Shown one piece after another: positions 4,688 through 41,060 of a DNA stretch of 64,000 bases (positions are counted from its first letter, which is position 1; every line of letters starts with the position of its first letter). Made by a program: the position numbers and the translations under genes. Source of the stretch: Rikenella microfusus (GTDB lineage: Bacteria; Bacteroidota; Bacteroidia; Bacteroidales; VadinHA17); contig DZBJ01000001.1 of the NCBI GenBank assembly GCA_022736275.1, positions 62,001-126,000 on the forward strand. The letters are read 5' to 3'. Under the pieces are notes generated by a model. It was given only the letters and a program-made list of their open reading frames with translations, ran no database searches and was not told the origin of the DNA.

Positions 4688-7600
4688 TTAGTAACCTTCG
4701 GAACCCAGGCCGCCGCTTTCCATACGCCGGAGGAAATTCAGCATCCTCTCGCGCAGCCCGACCATATAGACAAAGTCAATCCTGGCATTGGCTCCGGGAT
4801 CCCTTCTTTCCTTTTCCTTGATGCCTGTCAGCAGGTCGTTGTAGCTCTGACTTGATGAATAGCTCATAAGAATGCCCCTCAGATATGAGAACCAGTACCA
4901 AACGTTGTCATTGCCTTTGATGTAAATGTCAAGCAGGTCCCCCGACCTCTTTCTCTGCAGTTCCACCCATCCGTCGACATATATATTCATTGGCTGATCA
5001 CCAATGAATCCGATACCGATTTTGCCATCCGAAATGAATGACATTGTATTGGGGTTCCACTTAAGCGTCACGTCATTAAGCATGATCTGCGACGAATACT
5101 CTTTGGGCAGTGACCGGGCAACTCCGAAGAGCTGGAGCTCTTCGTTCAGTGTCTTCGCTGCCTGCTCGCCAATCAGGTCACGCATTGCCTTGGAATTGAA
5201 TTCCGAAGAGAGATTGACTGCCCTGAGTGTCGGTATTGAGCGTATGTCATCAGCCATGAGTTTAAGGGCATCAGGACTGAAATGGAATGAGAAGCTGAGC
5301 ATTGACCTCACCTTCACCACGGATGAGTCGGTATTGTTTGTAACAAGTCCGGAGCTGCTCATTTTTAGCAGATCGTAGTTCACACCGAAGTTGATCCTGC
5401 CTTCGCTGACCAGTATGCACTGGTTTCTGTCAAAGGTAATCATGTTCCCATGCCGGCTAAGATCTGAAAGCTTCTCCAGTGAGCCGATGCGGTATTTGCC
5501 TGAACCCTTGTCGTGAAACAGGTAACCATCAGCATTGATAAGCGGATTGTCGCTCCATGAGAGCCTTTCCGACAGGAAGGTGCCATAAACACCTGCAGAG
5601 TCCAGGGTGGCGAATGTTCCCGAGAAGAGGAGGTTGTCATTTATATCTCTCGGCTTGTCATTTACGGGGATCAGCACGTTAAGGGGGTCAATGGCAGCGC
5701 TGAATTTGACAGGACTGCTCTTAATGTTCGGGCAGAGCGTGATGATGCCGGCAGCACCGCTGAACCTGAGATCAGGTTCCGCGGAGCGCAGGATAACGTC
5801 ACCCGTGAAGGTGAAGGCAGGGCTCAGGGTGAAGTTCTGAGTAACCGGAACGTAACCAAGAGCCTTTGTGGCCAGTGTGTCTACCCTTATTTCACGGAAC
5901 TCTATTACCTGGCTCTGGCCTGTTTCATCCCTGTAATCGTATTTCCCTGATCCGTAATAGTTTGCACTGCTTTCGATGTTTATTTTTGCAGAATGGAGGA
6001 GATGCCTGTTGTTGACAGCCACGAGGGCACTGTCAGTCTGCCTGATCTTTGCCCTCTTTTCTATGTAGAGAGTGCCTCCGCCCGGCTGTATCAGCGCATC
6101 AGCCACAGGAATGTAATTAACCCCCCTGATCTCGACGTACTCATTCTGAAGGAAATATGAGGCAGAGCCCGACTGAAACTTGACAGTGTCTTTCATATTG
6201 TTGGTTGAAAAGAAGGTAGGTTTTTCAACCTTGCCCGGTGGCACCTTCAGCAACTCGTCAGCATTCATCAGTTCTGTCAGCTCTCTTCCACGCTGCGACA
6301 TATCAAGTACCTTGTTCTTAATATCATACTCGAAATTTGTCATCTTGGAGATGTATTCCAGCTCCGGGAAGACTACCAGTGATGAGTCGGTATTCAGGCT
6401 GAATGATGCACGCTGGGTGACGAAATCAACATTGGTGTTGGCATTGCTGGCAACAAAACCGTATCCGTCGCCCCTTAGGGCTTTCAGGTAGTAGTCAGAG
6501 GTATCTGCCCTGATCGTGGCGTGCCCGAATGCAAAGGTCTCCGAAGTAATCCGGGCATCAGCCATGTCCAGCACCCCTTTGCCCCTGAGGTTCTCAGGTG
6601 TAAGTATCAATGTGCCGTCAAGGGTTGTCCCGTTGCCAAACATGCTGAACTCCTTACCCGGGTTATTGACGGCATACCACTCATCCGTACCTGTGAGCCA
6701 CTGTATGTCGACATCAACTGATTTAAGCTCAGGGAACCTGTAAAGTGAGTCGCTGCGCATCTCAAAACTGTGAACCCTGGAGATCATATAGTCCGGGAAG
6801 AGCCGGAAGGTGTCTGCCCTGACGGTAGCGGTGAGGTGATCTATGGTACCGCTTGCAATGAGTCCGGAGTTGCTCATGCTGAGATGATTGTACAGCCGGC
6901 CCCTGCCGCTGTAAATGGGTATTCCTGCAGGGGGGATGTTCATGGTGAATCCGAGGGAGGTGTCAGGCTGTACTGTCAGGGTCTGTCTCATCGGCTCTGT
7001 GACTCCTCCGGCAATGAATTCACCGTCAAGTGCCATATCTTTATTCGTGTAATGGTCGATGTTGTTATAGGTGAAGGGGTCAAGCTTAAAAAAGAATTTG
7101 TCTCTCTCATACAGGCTTTCCAGGCCGGGGATATTATCATAGAAAATGTATGAGTTGGTTGATGAACTGATTATGGGGTATTGCTTCATGCTATTCAATC
7201 CCGATTTGTTGTTCGGGCCATCAATGAAAAGCTGGGCGGTGGCAGTCTCAATCATGTTGTCAATTCTCTTGATGACAGGCCTCCCGAAGGCATCTCGCTC
7301 TCCGGTCTCAACAGCAATCTTGATTGAATCTATTTTTTCAAGCCTGAGGTTGAAAGTGTCATAGTTGAAGGAGAACTGTTTTCCGTAAATGGTGAAGAGA
7401 CCGGCCTGAACCACGCCGTTGAATGATATGGCACGGTTCTTTCCTACTGTCAGCCGTCCGCCGTAAGGTCTTATGGCAACCTTCTGCGAGTCGCTCAGTG
7501 ACACCATTCTTACTCCGGCCAGATGAAGATCGTAACTCTTCAGGTCAAGGATTGCGTTCTCCTCCTGATCTCTTGTTTCGCTGTTGATGGTAATGGCATC

Positions 7601-9169
7601 ATAGTCTTTCTTTTTGGCGAAGGAGGCGATATAGTCATCAACCTTCTTCTTGATGGCCACCTCATTGTAGTTCCTGTCATAAAACAGGAATCCGTTGTTG
7701 GCCAGTTCAATGCAGAGTGCGGTGGCCTGTTCCAGCGGTACACGCATCCATTTGGCAAAGCTCTCCACAGGGAAAATGTCAGATCCGTATACTTTTGCAT
7801 AATCTCTGACGCGATACAGGGGGTGAACATCATCAAGCCTCATGAGCCTGAAGAAGTTGGCTTCATTGTAAAATGAGATCGACTCAAACTTGGCGGCTCC
7901 TATTGATGATCCTCTTGTTCGTGACATGGTTATGAACGGGTCGTCCATGTCCCATGATAGGTGCTCAAAATAGAGGTCGAGATTATGGTAGGAATCAAAA
8001 TAGGGACTTCGCGACAGCGGACTCGTTGTCCGGAACATGCTGACCTCCCTGGTGTCTGTGTTATAGGAAAAACCAAGGTTGGAATGATATACCGAGTCAG
8101 TACCCAGGTAAAGGGTTGAGGAGGCCTCATTGCTGTTGATGGTCTTCTGTGAAAGGATGAAGTTCCTTGATATCAGGTTGATTGCCAGGGTATCATTCCT
8201 GTAGAGTTTCACACTTGCCGGGAACCAGTTCGAGCCTGTTCCTCTGACAATAGCTCCCTCAAGGGCCAGCCCGCCTTCATAATCTACGTCTTTGTAAATG
8301 TCTTTGATGAAGAACCGTGTCTCATAGGTCTCAAACTTGGGCATTGTGGCTTTGTCAGGAGAAGTTATCGCCACGGCTCTGTCAGAGAGCTTGCCCGGAA
8401 CAGGTTTCTGGAAGTAGGTGGGATGTGTGAGGAGGGATGAATCACAGCTAAACTCACTCTTTGTAACATCGATGTCAAAATCCGACACTGTCGCAAAGAC
8501 GGTCGCAGGATCATATCCTGCTTTCTCCCACGTCACCGTGCCTTTCTGGCAGTGCAATGTGAAAACATCCGGGTAGTAGGTGCCTGTGAAGTCATAGATC
8601 TCGGTGCTGTCCTTTCCGAGAAAGGCTTTCAGTGTTACTGCCTTAATTTCGATTTTCAGCACTGTGTCACGGGCAAATTCGACCGAGCCTTCCCTGGTCT
8701 TCCATTTTACCGACCCGGCGGAATAAATTGTATTGTCAACAAGCAGGAGCCCTGTCACTTCGATGAATTTCTCAATGGAGGCGTTGGTGAAGCGTGGGTC
8801 AAAAGCCATCTCGCTGAGGCCGTCAAGCCATGCACTTATCTCTTCCTGACCCTGCCCCGTATTGATAAAACTGGTCAGTGTCCTTGCAAAAAAAATGAAC
8901 CCCGGTACCTGGCTTACTCTTCTGCCTCTGAGCTGGCTGGCCACATTCACTATCCGGTCTTTTGCCCTTGAGTCAAAACAAGTGCTGTCAAAAAATGAGT
9001 TGAACAGATATATTTCAGCCTTCTGCGTTTTGCTGACAAGTGTTCCCATGAATGCGTTCAGTTCTGCGGTGAACTTTGCACTTTCACCTGAGAACTGGGA
9101 TGGAACCTGCCCTTCAACTGTAATTGAGAGGACCGCTGCCGCCAGAAGGGTAATGAGGAACCTGTTCAT
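4688..9169 (-). CDS. Very large secreted/envelope protein of unknown function (1493 aa)
   Basis: The N-terminus is a clear signal peptide (MNRFLITLLAAAVLSITVEGQ) with probable cleavage after the glycine. The rest has no further strong membrane segment and consists mostly of alternating hydrophobic/polar stretches typical of beta structure. Many similar short blocks (for example FNGVVQAGLFTIYGKQFSF and GRLTVGKNRAISF) recall stacked beta-helical or OstA/TamB-like proteins, but this is only an impression. No catalytic motif or sorting tail was found. It is the last gene of a minus-strand operon, 7 bp after tpiA. A role in outer-membrane or periplasmic architecture is a guess. Confidence 0.75.
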   Translation of the reverse strand: MNRFLITLLAAAVLSITVEGQVPSQFSGESAKFTAELNAFMGTLVSKTQKAEIYLFNSFFDSTCFDSRAKDRIVNVASQLRGRRVSQVPGFIFFARTLTSFINTGQGQEEISAWLDGLSEMAFDPRFTNASIEKFIEVTGLLLVDNTIYSAGSVKWKTREGSVEFARDTVLKIEIKAVTLKAFLGKDSTEIYDFTGTYYPDVFTLHCQKGTVTWEKAGYDPATVFATVSDFDIDVTKSEFSCDSSLLTHPTYFQKPVPGKLSDRAVAITSPDKATMPKFETYETRFFIKDIYKDVDYEGGLALEGAIVRGTGSNWFPASVKLYRNDTLAINLISRNFILSQKTINSNEASSTLYLGTDSVYHSNLGFSYNTDTREVSMFRTTSPLSRSPYFDSYHNLDLYFEHLSWDMDDPFITMSRTRGSSIGAAKFESISFYNEANFFRLMRLDDVHPLYRVRDYAKVYGSDIFPVESFAKWMRVPLEQATALCIELANNGFLFYDRNYNEVAIKKKVDDYIASFAKKKDYDAITINSETRDQEENAILDLKSYDLHLAGVRMVSLSDSQKVAIRPYGGRLTVGKNRAISFNGVVQAGLFTIYGKQFSFNYDTFNLRLEKIDSIKIAVETGERDAFGRPVIKRIDNMIETATAQLFIDGPNNKSGLNSMKQYPIISSSTNSYIFYDNIPGLESLYERDKFFFKLDPFTYNNIDHYTNKDMALDGEFIAGGVTEPMRQTLTVQPDTSLGFTMNIPPAGIPIYSGRGRLYNHLSMSNSGLIASGTIDHLTATVRADTFRLFPDYMISRVHSFEMRSDSLYRFPELKSVDVDIQWLTGTDEWYAVNNPGKEFSMFGNGTTLDGTLILTPENLRGKGVLDMADARITSETFAFGHATIRADTSDYYLKALRGDGYGFVASNANTNVDFVTQRASFSLNTDSSLVVFPELEYISKMTNFEYDIKNKVLDMSQRGRELTELMNADELLKVPPGKVEKPTFFSTNNMKDTVKFQSGSASYFLQNEYVEIRGVNYIPVADALIQPGGGTLYIEKRAKIRQTDSALVAVNNRHLLHSAKINIESSANYYGSGKYDYRDETGQSQVIEFREIRVDTLATKALGYVPVTQNFTLSPAFTFTGDVILRSAEPDLRFSGAAGIITLCPNIKSSPVKFSAAIDPLNVLIPVNDKPRDINDNLLFSGTFATLDSAGVYGTFLSERLSWSDNPLINADGYLFHDKGSGKYRIGSLEKLSDLSRHGNMITFDRNQCILVSEGRINFGVNYDLLKMSSSGLVTNNTDSSVVKVRSMLSFSFHFSPDALKLMADDIRSIPTLRAVNLSSEFNSKAMRDLIGEQAAKTLNEELQLFGVARSLPKEYSSQIMLNDVTLKWNPNTMSFISDGKIGIGFIGDQPMNIYVDGWVELQRKRSGDLLDIYIKGNDNVWYWFSYLRGILMSYSSSQSYNDLLTGIKEKERRDPGANARIDFVYMVGLRERMLNFLRRMESGGLGSEGY

Positions 9170-33785: not shown

Positions 33786-33804
33786 CGGGCAAATTACCAA
33801 TTTG

Positions 33805-35799
33805 ATGCTGAACGCCGTTTTGTTTCTGCTGGTATTATTCCTTTCATTACTGGTTTTCTTCATACCCCGATCACTCAGGTACTATTTTACCCTGGCGCTT
33901 CTGGTTTGCGGAGCCATCCTGACTTCGGCGTGGTCTGTATCGGTTCTGACCGGCGGTGAGCAGCTGCTTGAAATACCGCTGTTTGTCCCTGCGTCCGGCA
34001 GCAGCCTTACACTGGTCATCGACAGTCTCTCAGCCTTTTTCATCATTGTAATCAACATAACCGTTTTAACCGGACTTTTGTACGCCAGGGGGTACCTGGC
34101 ACCCTATTACCGGCGCAAAAGTCCGCTTCGTTTTTCAATTCATTATTTCTCCTACCTGTGGCTCTGGCTCTCGATGCTGATGGTAGTGATGATCCGTGAC
34201 GGACTCTCTTTCCTGATCGTCTGGGAGATCATGGCCCTCTCATCATTCTTTCTCGTGATCTTTGATGCTGAGGAGCGGTCAATACTGAAGACCGGAATCA
34301 GTTACCTGATACAGATGCATGTCGGGATGTTCTTCATCCTTATAGCTTTCCTTATTGTCGGGAAGGCCACGGGCCGCATGAGCTTTGATGTTCTTGGCGA
34401 ATATTTTTCAACCCACAGGAACCTGCCTCTCTTTCTCCTTTTCTTTACAGGTTTTGCCCTCAAGGCAGGGTTCATCCCGCTCCACACATGGCTCCCGGAG
34501 GCTCATCCCGCTGCGCCTTCTCATGTATCCGGAGTGATGTCGGGGGTAATGATCAAGATGGGTATTTACGGGATAGTGCGAGTGCTCATCGACATGCAGT
34601 CAGACCTGCTGGTGACCGGGGTCATCATACTCGTTATATCATTGATCTCCGGGGTTATGGGAGTGATGATGGCTATAATGCAGAATGATCTGAAGAGGTT
34701 GCTGGCTTACAGCACCATAGAAAACATAGGTATCATCGGTGCGGGAACAGGTCTTGGTGTCATAGGCATGGCACTGGGCAATCCGGCCCTGACCCTGCTG
34801 GGTTTTTCAGGAGGCCTGATGCACATCCTGAACCACTCACTGTTCAAATCGCTGCTCTTTTTTAATGCCGGGTCCGTCTGTCAGGCTTCGCACACTCCCA
34901 ACATTGAACATCTTGGCGGACTTATGAAGAGAATGCCATACACGGCGATACTCTTCCTGATCGGATCCCTTGCTATCTGCGGCCTGCCGCCATTTAACGG
35001 ATTTATATCCGAATACCTCATTTATATGGGGATGTTCCACAGTCTTTCCGGATCCACGCTGTTTCATTCTGTTCTGATCCTCGGATCAATCGTGGGGCTG
35101 TCGCTTATCGGAGGACTGGCGATTTTCTGCTTTACCAGGGCATTCGGAATTGTATTCCTCGGTGAACCCAGAACTGACAGGGCAATTCACGTCACTGAGG
35201 TATCGCGGGGAATGATCATCCCGCAGCTTCTGGCCGTGGCATTCATCCTTGTCATTGGTCTTGCATCGCCACTTGCCGTGAGGCCGGTTTTTGCGATTAC
35301 GGTTCAGACATTCGGGATTAATAATCCGATAATGGTCTCAGGCGCCTTTTTGACAAATCTTGCCCAGATCAGCATCATGGGCGGTGTCTTTGTGGTGACG
35401 CTCGTGGTTCTCCTGGTGTACCGGCACTACCATCTCAGAAGAAGAGTGGTGGAAAGGGCCCCCACATGGGGATGCGGATATACTGCCGGCACGGCACGGC
35501 ATCAATATACAGGCACCTCCTTTGCCTATAACTACAATCATGTTGCAAAACCTGTGCTTCAGACACGCAAGGTGATGGATGAGATCAGTGAAGATGAGAT
35601 TTTCCCTCGTAAGAGGAGCTTCGTTTCATACAGTGATGATTTCTTCAAGAAAATACTTATTGACATGCCGGTCGACTGGTTTTCAGGACTGCTGAAAAGA
35701 ATAGCTGTGATGCAGACAGGTCAGATACAGCACTATATACTTTATGCCTTTGTTTTCATGCTCCTTGTGTTACTCCTGGCAATACTGAACATTATCTGA
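33805..35799 (+). CDS. HyfB-like antiporter/proton-channel subunit of an Ehr-type complex
   Basis: 664 residues from ATG 33805 (a TTG just before it is unlikely). It is a NuoL/NuoN/MrpA-type protein with about 14-16 membrane helices. Charged residues expected in the proton channel are present: E141 in VWEIMALSS, K220 in FALKAGFIPLHTWLPEAHPA, K251 in VMIKMGIYGI and the HSLFKSLLF lysine. The C-terminal region has a soluble loop (RHQYTGTSFAYNYNHVAKP) also seen in HyfB/HycC-like subunits. First gene of a six-gene operon, 2 bp before the next. Confidence 0.87.
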   Translation: MLNAVLFLLVLFLSLLVFFIPRSLRYYFTLALLVCGAILTSAWSVSVLTGGEQLLEIPLFVPASGSSLTLVIDSLSAFFIIVINITVLTGLLYARGYLAPYYRRKSPLRFSIHYFSYLWLWLSMLMVVMIRDGLSFLIVWEIMALSSFFLVIFDAEERSILKTGISYLIQMHVGMFFILIAFLIVGKATGRMSFDVLGEYFSTHRNLPLFLLFFTGFALKAGFIPLHTWLPEAHPAAPSHVSGVMSGVMIKMGIYGIVRVLIDMQSDLLVTGVIILVISLISGVMGVMMAIMQNDLKRLLAYSTIENIGIIGAGTGLGVIGMALGNPALTLLGFSGGLMHILNHSLFKSLLFFNAGSVCQASHTPNIEHLGGLMKRMPYTAILFLIGSLAICGLPPFNGFISEYLIYMGMFHSLSGSTLFHSVLILGSIVGLSLIGGLAIFCFTRAFGIVFLGEPRTDRAIHVTEVSRGMIIPQLLAVAFILVIGLASPLAVRPVFAITVQTFGINNPIMVSGAFLTNLAQISIMGGVFVVTLVVLLVYRHYHLRRRVVERAPTWGCGYTAGTARHQYTGTSFAYNYNHVAKPVLQTRKVMDEISEDEIFPRKRSFVSYSDDFFKKILIDMPVDWFSGLLKRIAVMQTGQIQHYILYAFVFMLLVLLLAILNII

Positions 35800-35801
35800 A
35801 G

Positions 35802-36713
35802 ATGGCAGGATTTGTTCTGATAGTGATCGCAGCCTTTTTCTTCCCGGGAATAATTCTCAGGACGAAAAGCATTGCCTCCGGGCGCAAGGGACCTGGAATT
35901 CTTCAGCCGGTGAAGGATATTATTGTGCTGCTGAAAAAGGGAAGTGTCTTCAGCACAACCACGGGATTAATATTTCAGATCGCACCGGCTGTCACACTGG
36001 TGTCAGTCATCTGTGCCATGCTGCTGCTGCCTTTTGCAGAGCAGAGGGCCCTGCTCTCATTTGAGGGCGATTTTGTTCTCTTTGCATACCTGCTTGCTCT
36101 CGGCAAGTTTTTTACTGTAATTGCCGCGCTTGACACAGGCAGCAGCTTCGAAGGCATGGGAGCGAGCCGCGAAGCCTTTTTCTCACTCCTGGTGGAACCG
36201 GCATTTTTTATCCTGCTTGCCACATTTGCCATGTTCACTGGTTATACTTCATTCTCTGTAATTTTCAACCAGTTTTTTATAACCGGGAATGACTATGTGA
36301 TGATATACAGCATCATAGGTGTCTATCTGTTTATACAGATCGCCATGGTTGAAAACAGCAGGGTGCCGATTGACGACCCGAAAACGCACCTCGAACTGAC
36401 TATGATACACGAGGTGATGATACTTGATTACAGCGGATTTGACAAGGCCCTGATACATATCGGTACCTATCTTAAATTCGCGCTATACGGTTCCCTGATA
36501 TATAACCTGATCGTACCGGCAGGCTGGAACATATTCCTGCAGACAGGATTATTCCTTGCTGTCCAGGCGTTCTTTGCGGTGGTGATAGGACTTGCCGAAT
36601 CGTTCAGGGCAAGGAACAAGATGAATAAAAACCCGAAATTCATCCTGACATTATCAGCGATAGCATGGATAGCATTTACGGTCATTTTAATACTTACTGA
36701 CAAACTGGTCTGA
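35802..36713 (+). CDS. HyfC/NuoH-like membrane subunit of an Ehr-type complex
   Basis: 303 residues, about eight membrane helices. This subunit connects the soluble redox module to the membrane arm. Family landmarks are GILQPVKDIIVLLKKG near residue 32 and ENSRVPIDDPKTHLELTMIHE near residue 185, the conserved acidic loop at the entrance of the quinone/proton channel. It matches formate-hydrogenlyase subunit 4 rather than complex I NuoH in length. It is 2 bp after the HyfB-like gene and 6 bp before the HyfE-like gene. Confidence 0.88.
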   Translation: MAGFVLIVIAAFFFPGIILRTKSIASGRKGPGILQPVKDIIVLLKKGSVFSTTTGLIFQIAPAVTLVSVICAMLLLPFAEQRALLSFEGDFVLFAYLLALGKFFTVIAALDTGSSFEGMGASREAFFSLLVEPAFFILLATFAMFTGYTSFSVIFNQFFITGNDYVMIYSIIGVYLFIQIAMVENSRVPIDDPKTHLELTMIHEVMILDYSGFDKALIHIGTYLKFALYGSLIYNLIVPAGWNIFLQTGLFLAVQAFFAVVIGLAESFRARNKMNKNPKFILTLSAIAWIAFTVILILTDKLV

Positions 36714-36719
36714 AAGGAG

Positions 36720-37334
36720 ATGATAAACTATCTGATAGTCCTGTTCGCTATCACGCTGATGTACTTTTCATCGGCTGACAGGCTCATAACATATGTCAAG
36801 CTCATAGCGATCCAGGGACTTTTGCTTTGCGGCATTGCCATTTTCGAGCTAAAAGAGGTGAACACCCCGAACCTGCTCTTCATCGTTGCGGAAACATTGC
36901 TGTTCAAGACTCTGATCCTGCCCTGGCTACTGGCAAGAATACTACACCGTTCAGGTGTGACCAAGGTTCACCGGCTTGCCATGCCCGGATTCTATCTTCT
37001 GATATTTTCAATCTTTGGACTGCTGATAAGCGTCATCCTTGCAAAGATCCTTATCAATCCATATATCAATACCATCTACCTCGCCATAGCTCTCTTTACC
37101 CTTGTAACGGGACTGCTGCTGATTGTGACCCATAAACTGATAATCTCGCACCTTATTGGATTTCTGATAATTGAGAATGCGGTATTCATGTTCTCACTGG
37201 CTGTCGGGAGCGAGATGCCGATGCTTATCAACATCGGGATACTCCTTGATATTTTTGTCGGAGTACTGATTCTCGGTTTCTTCGGGCTGCGTCTCAAGCC
37301 TCATACCAACGAGCTGACTTTGTTAAAAGATTAG
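36720..37334 (+). CDS. HyfE/NuoK-like membrane subunit of an Ehr-type complex
   Basis: 204 residues, about seven membrane helices. The second half (THKLIISHLIGFLIIENAVFMFSLAVG) resembles NuoK/MrpC, with the conserved Glu in the LIIENAVF helix. HyfE proteins are a NuoK-like core with extra N-terminal helices, and the length fits. It lies inside the six-gene operon (6 bp upstream gap, 2 bp downstream gap). Confidence 0.83.
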   Translation: MINYLIVLFAITLMYFSSADRLITYVKLIAIQGLLLCGIAIFELKEVNTPNLLFIVAETLLFKTLILPWLLARILHRSGVTKVHRLAMPGFYLLIFSIFGLLISVILAKILINPYINTIYLAIALFTLVTGLLLIVTHKLIISHLIGFLIIENAVFMFSLAVGSEMPMLINIGILLDIFVGVLILGFFGLRLKPHTNELTLLKD

Positions 37335-37336
37335 AA

Positions 37337-38764
37337 ATGATGCTTTTGCTATTCTTTGTCATATCAGTGTTATTGAGTGCCTCGGCATTTCTGTTCAGAA
37401 ACAGGGCCGTGACCAGGATACTCACGCTTGCGTTTTCAGTGGTGCTTATCCTGTTTACGGTATATGGCTGGAGCAATCTGAATGAGACGGAGCTGGCTTA
37501 TTTTACCTTTGACAGCACAGGAGTACTCTTGCTGACAGTACTGGCTATCCTCTCCCTTCCTGCCATTTACCACGGATTTATTTATACGGCTGACGACAGT
37601 ACGAAGAGATACAATATTTATCATGCCGGACTGATAGCCCTTATGACTTTCATGGCAGGTGCCTATCTGGCCAACACGATGACTGTACTGTGGATCTTTG
37701 TGGAAGCCACTACCCTGGCCGTTGCCGTGCTCATATATCATGACCGTACGGAAATGGCCCTGGAGGCCGCGTGGAAATATGTCTTTATCTGCTCAACCGG
37801 TATCGCACTGGCTTACCTGGGCATCCTGTTCCTCGGATTTATTTATGGCCGGGGAGATGCCCCCAATCTTTCCTTTGAATCGTTCTCGATGGTCATCAGC
37901 AATGCCAGCCCGTTGTACCTGAAGATCTCCTTTATCTTCGTGCTGGTTGGATTCAGCACCAAGATGGGGCTCTTTCCGATGCATACTGTCACGATAGATG
38001 CCCATTCGGTTGCACCTCCGCCCGTAAGCGCCCTGATATCAACCACCCTGATGAATGTGGGATTCCTTGCCATCTTCCGTGTATATAAGTTATTCGCTTC
38101 AACGTCAGTTTTGCCGTTCATGAATCACGTTCTCATCCTGGCAGGATTGCTGTCGCTGCTGACAGCTGCGGGATACATGCTCAAGGCGAAGCACCTGAAA
38201 AGGATGCTGGCTTATTCGAGCCTTGAGAATATGGGTCTGGTAGCAATAGCCATTGGTGCGGGGGCGACAGGATACTATGCAGCACTGTTGCTCATCATTT
38301 TGCATTCCTTTGCCAAATCAAGTCTCTTCTACCAGATGGGACAGCTCTCAAGAATACTGCATACATTTAAGCTCGATGCATGCGGCAGGTACATGAAACT
38401 TTACCCTGCCGGCGCCATGGTGCTTCTGACAGGAATGATCTGCATCCTGGCGATTCCTCCGTCAGGATTGTTCATTTCCGAACTTATGATTTTCAGGGGC
38501 CTGGTTGGGAACGGACAGTGGTTTGTTCTTATCGTCTCGATAATATTACTGTGTTTCGTGATTTACGCCATGAGCATACGAATCATGCATATCACCTTCT
38601 CTGACCCCAGGGATGAGGAGGGATCAAAGTTGCCCGGTGCAGTGAGTCCGGTTGAGACGGTAAGCCAGTTTTTTCTTCTGGCAATCGTTATTATGCTATG
38701 CTTTTATCAGCCACCATTCCTGGCCGACATGATCAATCAGAGTTTTGCCATTCTTCCGAGATAA
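37337..38764 (+). CDS. HyfF-like antiporter/proton-channel subunit of an Ehr-type complex
   Basis: 475 residues, about 14 membrane helices, NuoN/MrpD type. Channel residues are present: Glu in WIFVEATTLAVAVLIYHD, Lys in FSTKMGLFPMHTVTIDAH, and Lys in HSFAKSSLF; MLKAKHLKRMLAYSSLENMG is the usual loop sequence. With the HyfB-like protein it supplies two putative proton paths. The next gene starts 5 bp after its stop. Confidence 0.87.
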   Translation: MMLLLFFVISVLLSASAFLFRNRAVTRILTLAFSVVLILFTVYGWSNLNETELAYFTFDSTGVLLLTVLAILSLPAIYHGFIYTADDSTKRYNIYHAGLIALMTFMAGAYLANTMTVLWIFVEATTLAVAVLIYHDRTEMALEAAWKYVFICSTGIALAYLGILFLGFIYGRGDAPNLSFESFSMVISNASPLYLKISFIFVLVGFSTKMGLFPMHTVTIDAHSVAPPPVSALISTTLMNVGFLAIFRVYKLFASTSVLPFMNHVLILAGLLSLLTAAGYMLKAKHLKRMLAYSSLENMGLVAIAIGAGATGYYAALLLIILHSFAKSSLFYQMGQLSRILHTFKLDACGRYMKLYPAGAMVLLTGMICILAIPPSGLFISELMIFRGLVGNGQWFVLIVSIILLCFVIYAMSIRIMHITFSDPRDEEGSKLPGAVSPVETVSQFFLLAIVIMLCFYQPPFLADMINQSFAILPR

Positions 38765-38769
38765 AGACA

Positions 38770-40290
38770 ATGAACCAACACACATATACAGAGGTTAATA
38801 ACGGTTCAGCACCGGTTCCGGTCAGGTCGACACCGGTTTTGAGTTATGGCCACTTTTATGATGAAGTTACAAAGCTGCTCGGCAGCGCATCAAATCACTG
38901 TATCTCATACTATTGTCATGATCTGTCTGACAGACTGAAGTTCATCTGCTGCATTGCCGATGATGAAACCGGAAGTATTAAGGTTCTAAGCCATGAAAAA
39001 AAGGCGGACGGCACACCGCTCAGGTCACTTACTGTCGACTGTCCGTCAGTGCATATCTTTGAGCGTGAGATACATGAAAATTTTGGCGTGGTATTCGAGG
39101 GGCATCCCTGGCTCAAACCTGTGAGATATCCGCATGACAGGGCTGACAGGCTCAGTGTTATGGACAATTATCCGTTTTATATCATTGATGGTGAGGAACT
39201 TCATGAGGTGGGAGTAGGGCCTGTACATGCAGGTGTGATAGAGCCGGGTCATTTCCGGTTCATCTGCAACGGAGAAAAGGTTCTGCACCTCGAGATACAG
39301 CTTGGATACCAGCACAGGGGTGTTGAGAGGATGTTAGCTGAGAAAAGCGAGGCTCTGCAGAGATGCATACTGGCTGAGAACATAGCCGGAGATACGGCAA
39401 CAGGTCACAACCTGGCCCATGTACAGCTTATTGAGTCTCTGGCAGGGATTGAAGTATATGAGGCTTTGCAGATTGAACGATGTATAGCCCTTGAGATGGA
39501 GCGGATTGCGGTACATATCGGCGACACGGCAGCGCTGTGCGGCGATGTTGCCTACCAGCTTGGACAGGTAACCTGCGAGGCTCTGAGAACAATGGTGATC
39601 AATACAACTCAGTCGTGGTGCGGTAACAGGTTCGGCAAAGGACTGATTCGTCCCGGCGGTTCGAATTACCCGCTGACTGGTGAGATGGCCGATGAGATAC
39701 TTGGGAATCTGGCTGACGTTGAAAGGCGGTACAGTAATGTCACAGATTGCATCTATTCACTTCCGAGCGTTCTCGGCAGGTTCGAAGACATTGGCACTGT
39801 TACACGGCAGCAGGCTACGGAGATCGGTGCAGTGGGAATGACTGCCCGCACATGTGGCATCATGCGCGATACACGCAAGACTCATCCCTTCCAGCACTAT
39901 AAGAATTTCCAAATTGATCCGGTCACTCTCGAAACAGGCGATGTTCTGGCACGTGGCATGCTGAGAGCCCTTGAGGTCAAAGCATCGGCAGGAATAATTC
40001 GTGGTTTGATCGATGCGTGGAGAAAGGCTGAAAAAACTGTGGGAAAGCCTGACTATGATCTCAGGCTCATTCCTGACAGCTTCGCAGTGTCAATGACGGA
40101 GGGATGGCGGGGCGAAATATGTCACACTGCAGTAACTGACAGCATGGGGAATATATCTCATTACAAAGTCAAGGATCCGTCACTGCATAACTGGCTGGCA
40201 CTGGCACTGGCGGTACGCAACCAGGAAATATCTGATTTCCCTGTGTGCAACAAGAGCTTTAACCTCTCATATTGCGGGCATGACCTGTAG
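38770..40290 (+). CDS. HyfG-like NuoC-NuoD fusion subunit lacking the [NiFe] cysteines
   Basis: 506 residues from ATG 38770. Residues ~25-125 are NuoC-like (FEREIHENFGVVFEGHPWLKPVRYP). Residues ~140-506 are a NuoD/hydrogenase large-subunit domain (VGPVHAGVIEPGHFRF, LEIQLGYQHRGVERML, FGKGLIRPGG). The N-terminal nickel motif CGIC is replaced: the aligned stretch reads AENIAGDTA with A206 and T209 where the cysteines should be. The C-terminal CxxC is replaced by S500 and G503 in NLSYCGHDL, and there is no cleavable tail. It cannot bind a normal [NiFe] centre. Related Ehr proteins are known but their reaction is not. Confidence 0.88.
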   Translation: MNQHTYTEVNNGSAPVPVRSTPVLSYGHFYDEVTKLLGSASNHCISYYCHDLSDRLKFICCIADDETGSIKVLSHEKKADGTPLRSLTVDCPSVHIFEREIHENFGVVFEGHPWLKPVRYPHDRADRLSVMDNYPFYIIDGEELHEVGVGPVHAGVIEPGHFRFICNGEKVLHLEIQLGYQHRGVERMLAEKSEALQRCILAENIAGDTATGHNLAHVQLIESLAGIEVYEALQIERCIALEMERIAVHIGDTAALCGDVAYQLGQVTCEALRTMVINTTQSWCGNRFGKGLIRPGGSNYPLTGEMADEILGNLADVERRYSNVTDCIYSLPSVLGRFEDIGTVTRQQATEIGAVGMTARTCGIMRDTRKTHPFQHYKNFQIDPVTLETGDVLARGMLRALEVKASAGIIRGLIDAWRKAEKTVGKPDYDLRLIPDSFAVSMTEGWRGEICHTAVTDSMGNISHYKVKDPSLHNWLALALAVRNQEISDFPVCNKSFNLSYCGHDL

Positions 40291-40307
40291 ATAACTGAAG
40301 CGCGATT

Positions 40308-41060
40308 ATGTTCAAGGAGATAAAGATACTTTCGGACCACGGCAAACAGTACATTCCTGACCTCAGAAACCAACCGGTCTCAGCGAGGTTCAGGGGCAGA
40401 CCGGTAATCTCTGCTGCAATAACCGGGGAGGAGATTGCCAGGGTTTCTTCCATTTGCCCTGTAAATGCCATTGACAGGCGCAACGGTTCAATTGACCTTG
40501 GCAGATGCACCTTCTGCAATGAGTGCGCACTGATGATACCCGGCACTATCAGATTTACAAATGATTACCGGATTGCGGCAAGCAGGAGGGACGATTTAAT
40601 TGTCAGGCCCGGCCAGACCGGACCTATGAGACTTAATGAGACCGCTGTCAGAAGTGATATCCGCCGTCTGTTCCGCAGGTCGCTGAAGCTCAGGCAGGTA
40701 TCTGCCGGAGGTGATAACTCCTGTGAAATGGAACTGACCGCAGCGGGGAATGTCAACTTCGATCTCGGGCGTTACGGCATTGAGTTCGTGGCTTCGCCGC
40801 GCCATGCAGACGGCATCGTAATTACAGGCCCGGTGACAGACAACATGTCTGAGGCCCTGGAAATTACCTATAAGGCAGTACCATCACCCAAGATCATTAT
40901 CCTTACAGGTACCGACGCCATCAGCGGAGGGTTGTTTGAAGGGAGTCCCGCCCTGAAACGCGGATTTACAGTCAGACACCCGGTTGATCTGTATGTTCCC
41001 GGAAACCCTGCCCACCCTCTGTCCTTCATCAACGGGGTCATGGATATGCTCGGACTCTAA
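40308..41060 (+). CDS. Fused ferredoxin/NuoB-like subunit with reduced Fe-S content
   Basis: 250 residues. Residues ~30-85 resemble the HyfH/NuoI two-cluster ferredoxin. Only C50 (SICPVNAI) and C67, C70, C73 (RCTFCNEC) remain, exactly the ligands of one [4Fe-4S]; G40, I43, V46 and I77 replace the ligands of the other. Residues ~130-250 are NuoB/HyfI-like (DLGRYGIEF, SPRHADGIVITGPVT, PVDLYVPGNPAHP). Of the four proximal-cluster ligands only C139 remains; D136, D203 and N233 occupy the others. The fusion and these losses make it unusual. It is the last gene of the operon, 17 bp after the HyfG-like gene. Confidence 0.82.
   Translation: MFKEIKILSDHGKQYIPDLRNQPVSARFRGRPVISAAITGEEIARVSSICPVNAIDRRNGSIDLGRCTFCNECALMIPGTIRFTNDYRIAASRRDDLIVRPGQTGPMRLNETAVRSDIRRLFRRSLKLRQVSAGGDNSCEMELTAAGNVNFDLGRYGIEFVASPRHADGIVITGPVTDNMSEALEITYKAVPSPKIIILTGTDAISGGLFEGSPALKRGFTVRHPVDLYVPGNPAHPLSFINGVMDMLGL

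Follow-up and report, generated by a model that had tools for sequence, protein, structure and literature searches.

Does a ferredoxin-NuoB subunit that has lost seven of its twelve cluster-ligating cysteines come from a decaying gene, or does it serve a complex that is kept, by selection, without them? The question is raised by the gene that ends a six-gene operon for an Ehr (energy-converting hydrogenase-related) complex. The operon occupies positions 33802-41060 on the forward strand of the window, that is, of the whole 64,000-nucleotide stretch analysed here (contig C45 of a 3.1 Mb assembly). The first gene (33802-35799, with an in-frame ATG at 33805) encodes a HyfB/NuoL-like antiporter subunit (Proton_antipo_M, E = 2e-52); its product also matches the hydrogenase 4 subunit B model at E = 1.9e-162, short of that model's cut-off. 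It is followed by genes for a HyfC/NuoH-like membrane subunit (35802-36713; NADHdh, E = 2e-29), a HyfE-like membrane subunit (36720-37334; hydrogenase 4 membrane subunit model, E = 3e-10), a HyfF/NuoN-like antiporter subunit (37337-38764; Proton_antipo_M, E = 1.1e-40) and a large subunit that is a NuoC+NuoD-like fusion (38770-40290; Complex1_49kDa, E = 8.4e-33; Complex1_30kDa, E = 2e-7). The likely start of the large subunit is the ATG at 38770, though its open reading frame opens at 38698. Taken from that first ATG the frame overlaps the HyfF gene by 67 bases, and taken from 38770 it does not overlap. The same order, HyfB-C-E-F-large subunit-small subunit, is found at nearly all complete loci examined; the L145 locus is rearranged. 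Flanking the operon, and outside it, are genes identified by reading as a Gfo/Idh/MocA-type oxidoreductase and an amidohydrolase. The genome also carries a separate complex I (contig C71) and a true group 4 [NiFe] hydrogenase that keeps its ERICGIC and DPCYCC motifs (contig C47).

The small subunit, here called FdB, is encoded at 40308-41060 and is 250 residues long. Profile matches cover residues 137-246 (Oxidored_q6, E = 1.3e-19) and residues 19-100 (FHL iron-sulfur subunit model, E = 6e-7). In a predicted structure with pLDDT 89.8 and pTM 0.87, residues 112-250 resemble HycG of E. coli formate hydrogenlyase (7z0t_G; Z 15.3, rmsd 2.3 over 138 residues). The N-terminal domain predicted alone finds HycF as its best match (7z0s_F; Z 9.8 over 84 residues) and then NuoI chains, in agreement with a profile search. 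FdB is thus confirmed as a HycF/NuoI-like ferredoxin domain joined to a HycG/NuoB-like domain, which upholds the make-up proposed in the sequence-only reading. That reading had also called the fusion itself uncommon, and here it was mistaken: the fusion is the normal arrangement within the Ehr family and is seen in Bacteroidota, Variovorax, Burkholderia, Caballeronia, Allomeiothermus and Mycobacterium branderi.

In NuoI, cysteines 1-3 of the first motif and cysteine 4 of the second hold cluster N6a, while cysteine 4 of the first motif and cysteines 1-3 of the second hold N6b. By this assignment C50, C67, C70 and C73 of FdB make up the N6b set, and positions 40, 43, 46 and 77 make up the N6a set (cluster I). 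All twelve residues named in the sequence-only reading are present in the frame: G40, I43, V46, C50, C67, C70, C73 and I77 in the ferredoxin half, and D136, C139, D203 and N233 in the NuoB-like half, where they fall on the four N2 ligand positions in the alignment with MbhJ and HycG. The ferredoxin half keeps the NuoI/HycF fold with one full ligand set in place of the two CxxCxxCxxxCP motifs of a 2x[4Fe-4S] ferredoxin. If four of eight cysteines were lost at random, exactly one cluster's set would be left with a chance of 2/70 (0.029), a figure for one sequence; we take the pattern as real because it is conserved across the homologues.

Homologues were drawn from close relatives, the phylum, a species-level genome collection (80 loci) and the order, giving 164 distinct sequences. 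Among these, 129 fused homologues share the state of the window, with a one-cluster ferredoxin half and replaced N2 ligands. C50 (codon at 40455-40457) and the C67-x2-C70-x2-C73 motif (40506-40526) are cysteine in 129/129 of them, so that the proposed division into one full set and one missing set stands. The cluster I positions G40, I43 and V46 (40425-40445) vary freely in the branch and are never cysteine. I77 (40536-40538) is replaced by cysteine in a few members, none of which has the remaining ligands of that cluster. All of these cluster I positions are cysteine in N2-intact cousins (L129, L133, L194 and others). A scatter of random cysteine losses among close homologues, which would speak against loss by whole clusters, was looked for and not found. 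As judged from the ligands, cluster I (N6a-like) and N2 cannot form as Cys-ligated clusters in this branch, and the ligands of the middle [4Fe-4S] cluster (N6b-like) are invariant.

The state is widespread. A member of the family was found in 68/295 sampled genomes of the order, mostly from the N2-less branch, and N2-less proteins are encoded in the cultured or complete genomes of Niastella vici (L103) and Bacteroidales bacterium CF (L126) as well as in many MAGs. Binning errors may account for the matches assigned to Delongbacteria and Alphaproteobacteria (L084, L121).

The missing cysteines are what a decaying gene might show, and the remaining evidence refutes decay. Pairwise dN/dS for FdB is 0.05-0.12 (about 0.1), similar to that of the other five operon genes; frames are open throughout the branch, with no internal stop among the matches listed except one TAA in L215, and the replacement residues are fixed. 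As read from these comparisons the FdB gene is under purifying selection, and we give decay practically no weight. The claim that loss by whole clusters reflects remodelling thus holds up well: the pattern is fixed in the branch, selection maintains it, and it recurs in Allomeiothermus and M. branderi (below).

At the former N2 site, D136-N-S-C139 (40713-40724) covers the first two positions, D203 (40914-40916) the third and N233 (41004-41006) the fourth. Position 136 is D or E in all members, 203 is D in ~98% and otherwise E or N, and 233 is N in 100% of the branch. Position 139 is C in 85 of the 115 N2-less branch members whose large subunit was also available, and A, T, N, G, S or V in the others. 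As it varies, C139 is not a conserved survivor and is probably no ligand. The earlier description of the N2 site therefore stands for the replacements at 136, 203 and 233, which are conserved, and fails for C139 as a retained ligand. Exactly two carboxylates occupy the four former N2 positions in 114/115 main-branch members; L121 (D-T-N-N) has a single acid. We considered H236 as a new ligand arising with the loss of N2 and ruled it out, since N2-containing cousins carry it too.

Conservation of D136, D203 and N233 at 98-100% is what a metal site would be expected to show, and [4Fe-4S] clusters with a single Asp ligand occur elsewhere. The pocket might then bind another metal (mononuclear Fe, Mn or Mg, or an Asp-ligated cluster) that serves as N2 and leaves the wire working. 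We consider this unlikely: the fourth position varies freely, independent lineages differ in their residues (T-D-E-S, N-D-D-A and D-C-D-D) and share two carboxylates only, and with cluster I also gone the wire would still be without its entry station. It is nearly certain, in our estimate, that N2 is truly absent.

What kind of complex is this? In the large subunit, AENIAGDTATGH replaces RICGxC and DFPVCNKSFNLSYCGHDL replaces DPCxxC, so the NiFe-binding CxxC motifs are absent, as they are from the large subunits of its relatives. This rules out a group 4 [NiFe] hydrogenase and places the complex among the Ehr complexes, which are defined by the lack of these motifs together with Hyf/Mrp-like membrane subunits, a large subunit and a small subunit. 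N2 ligands in the small subunit are usual in Ehr complexes, though outside the definition; here they are D136/C139/D203/N233. Respiratory complex I shares with it the fold of NuoB, NuoI and NuoD and the N6a, N6b and N2 ligand positions, but the window complex is not a complex I: it has only six genes, with no NADH module (NuoEFG) in the operon, its N2 ligands are replaced and its membrane arm is of Hyf type. E. coli formate hydrogenlyase/hydrogenase-4 (HycF, HycG, HycE; 7z0s, 7z0t) provides the best structural match for both halves of FdB and has similar membrane subunits; unlike the window complex, it has HycF and HycG as separate proteins with their cysteines retained, and NiFe in HycE. Pyrococcus MBH (6cfw) and MBS (6u8y) likewise set a NuoB-like and a NuoI-like subunit on an antiporter-type membrane arm, but the two subunits are unfused. 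Ehr complexes are known to lack NiFe ligands and have no established function (PMC6349859, PMC7894505, PMC7304191). The closest described likeness is to EhrA/C/L/S of Geobacter sulfurreducens, with no NiFe-binding Cys in the large subunit, Hyf-like membrane subunits and a similar gene set (PMC7894505, PMC6349859, PMC7304191). The small subunit in the window differs in additionally lacking N2 and one ferredoxin cluster; the descriptions consulted mention large-subunit ligands only. No report of N2 or ferredoxin-cluster loss in Ehr complexes, and no biochemical study of any member of the family, was found in the literature searched; the specialised 2013 'missing link' Ehr paper lay outside that search, and an earlier mention there is possible.

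The N2-containing relatives show what has changed and include intermediate states. The intact and INTERMEDIATE relatives are nineteen fused cousins at 35-55% identity that keep all four N2 cysteines, most of them with both ferredoxin clusters. Three (L130-L132) have lost cluster I and kept N2, and in two others (L143 and L193) cluster I is partly lost. In a tree of four other subunits the N2-less rows are compatible with one clade (p = 0.7), and L130-L132 are separate from it; a single origin of cluster I loss shared with L130-L132 was rejected (AU p = 2.5e-4). From their separate place it follows that cluster I was lost repeatedly, with cluster II left whole every time. In this data set no fused protein that has cluster I has lost N2. 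All four N2 cysteines are also kept in related plasmid operons, both fused (Variovorax, Burkholderia multivorans, Caballeronia) and unfused (Rhizobium, Azospirillum, Cupriavidus, Methylovirgula, Methylocalor, B. pyrrocinia). One N2-intact locus (L192, on contig C368 of genome G588) is nested among N2-less members in the large-subunit tree and lies outside them in the NuoB tree, and may be a mosaic operon or reflect more than one N2 loss within Bacteroidota.

Very little else distinguishes the two groups. The only FdB columns that separate N2-less from N2-intact proteins are C136D, G138S, C203D and C233N, and the only such column in the large subunit is R314K; HyfC, HyfB, HyfF and HyfE have 3, 1, 7 and 1, mostly conservative. 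Across the six subunits, as far as aligned residues can tell, the main difference between the groups is the N2 ligands themselves.

N2 has been lost more than once. In L145 (also L021), from the same order as the window, NuoB is unfused and reads D-C-D-D at the N2 positions (contig C386 of genome G047, 7225-7752 on the reverse strand), and there is no ferredoxin domain in an operon that is otherwise complete, so that apparently no Cys-ligated redox centre would be left in it at all. In the NuoB tree this protein falls among unfused proteobacterial proteins, and a shared origin of L145 with the main N2-less branch was rejected (AU p about 1e-65). Two further cases come from two other phyla. On plasmid pMESIL01 of Allomeiothermus silvanus DSM 9946 (L230, 7860-8732) the N2 positions read T-D-E-S, and on plasmid pJCM12687 of M. 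branderi (L234, 7348-8142) they read N-D-D-A; in both, the ferredoxin half keeps only C50/67/70/73. For the Rv0082-Rv0087 locus of M. tuberculosis, the literature describes a putative hydrogenase (PMC6901956). Mapped onto the cross-phylum large-subunit tree, the N2 state takes 6 changes, at least 4 of them forced by starred branches; the long branches of M. branderi and A. silvanus leave their exact neighbours unsure. Beyond the main branch, N2 was lost independently at least three more times, in L145, A. silvanus and M. branderi. In all four N2-less lineages position 203 is acidic and exactly one of 136 and 139 is acidic, L145 having a third acid at 233. At an acid frequency of 12% this two-acid pattern has a chance of about 5e-7, a post-hoc figure from four events of which three are single sequences. 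Separately, the plasmid of Streptomyces sp. NBC_01483 (L240, protein at ~7501) encodes an unfused NuoB-like protein with R-C-C-C at the N2 positions.

In a complete complex the wire would run from donor to N6a, N6b, N2 and the cavity of the large subunit. Pyrococcus MBH and MBS are redox-active and have a full cluster wire. The surviving cluster of FdB would be the middle station, with its neighbours gone on both sides, and electrons would no longer pass from a donor through the small subunit to the cavity. That the electron wire is non-functional seems to us highly probable, if a step less sure than the absence of N2. No other donor-like CxxCxxC protein is encoded beside the window operon or the A. 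silvanus operon. The surviving cluster could be structural, or could act as a sensor of redox state, O2 or iron.

Could electrons or hydride instead be delivered directly to the large-subunit cavity by another partner, which the surviving cluster would serve, so that the complex is still an oxidoreductase? The cavity motifs are conserved as in N2-containing relatives, and one cousin, L193, has Hox-like hydrogenase genes directly downstream. At N2-less loci, however, no recurring linked partner gene was found, and the recurring neighbours go with N2-containing loci only: a protein with HTH_17 and PTS_EIIA_2 domains is found at 12/18 N2-containing loci and a SulP permease at 7, and neither is found at N2-less loci. 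The middle cluster would also be without an adjoining acceptor cluster. Direct delivery is, in our judgement, about as improbable as another metal in the N2 pocket. Several further features of gene neighbourhoods can be recorded. In N2-containing Bacteroidota operons the SulP/STAS permease gene lies upstream (L133, L134, L136, L138, L141), between the large-subunit and FdB genes (L142) or downstream (L129). The genes downstream of FdB in L193, which is N2-containing, resemble those of a Hox-type NAD-reducing hydrogenase by reading and lie 773-5344 bases from the FdB centre. A second HyfB/NuoL-like gene, that is, a doubled antiporter subunit, lies upstream of the operon in L103, L137, L139, L140 and L147.

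Alternatively, the loss of the wire might reflect a peripheral arm reduced to an assembly scaffold, with the work done wholly in a membrane arm that it does not gate. The absence of the fused ferredoxin domain from L145 and from Rhizobium, Cupriavidus and other cousins speaks for this, but in the N2-less branch more than 110 large-subunit columns, cavity motifs included, show conservation of at least 97%, beyond what a pure scaffold would need, and we hold this reading to be less probable still than direct delivery. The membrane arm is conserved as well. HyfC E124, E132, D191, D192, E198, E204 and E266 are at least 97% conserved in the branch, and the charged antiporter-type residues HyfB E142, K221 and K252 and HyfF E123, E143, K209 and K327 are conserved. 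By its residues, the arm has the conserved charges looked for in an ion-transporting arm of the Mrp/Nuo type. Antiporter-like residues are kept in redox-driven relatives too, and so cannot by being conserved establish that ions are transported.

An oxidised [4Fe-4S] cluster with four Cys ligands carries a charge of -2, equal to that of two carboxylates. D136 and D203 may then supply the net charge of -2 that an oxidised [4Fe-4S](Cys)4 would bring next to the conserved Arg207 of the large subunit, so that the NuoB/NuoD/NuoH coupling region would stay folded as if N2 were permanently oxidised. In complex I, NDUFS2-R121 sits 3.7 A from N2, and when it is mutated N2 is lost while the assembled complex is native-like (PMC8042128). 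Our reading of the alignment makes the Arg of the large-subunit HRG motif the counterpart of R121; it is kept in N2-less proteins and is Lys in L145. Because R121 lies near N2, because loss of N2 is tolerated in its mutant and because the HRG Arg is kept, we propose that the carboxylates hold the site charged and folded. We put this charge mimicry forward tentatively, at slightly under even chances. The HyfB/HyfC/HyfF arm would be a cation transporter, either an antiporter or a gated leak, and not a redox-driven pump; ion transport as the working function is an evenly balanced proposition. Taken together, a selectively maintained, unwired Ehr complex, with carboxylates in place of the N2 charge and a membrane arm working as a cation transporter, is the reading we prefer, and we give it about an even chance of being right. 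The broader idea, that a machine of the complex I superfamily has repeatedly been severed from electron flow, has had the charge of N2 replaced by carboxylates and moves or gates ions without redox chemistry, is a possibility that we rate clearly below even.

It has long been asked how proton pumping in complex I is driven by electron transfer at N2. A widespread branch that keeps the cavity and the membrane arm and lacks N2 and the cluster that feeds it is a natural experiment on this point, and the isolates with N2-less operons (N. vici, Bacteroidales bacterium CF and A. silvanus DSM 9946) allow experiments. Annotation pipelines mislead by labelling such genes as NADH dehydrogenase, ferredoxin or hydrogenase subunits. 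If the N2-less complex still works, redox chemistry is not needed to run the coupling machinery; if the broader idea is true, the branch would be an evolutionary knock-out of N2, in which the conformational coupling of complex I has been separated from electron transfer.
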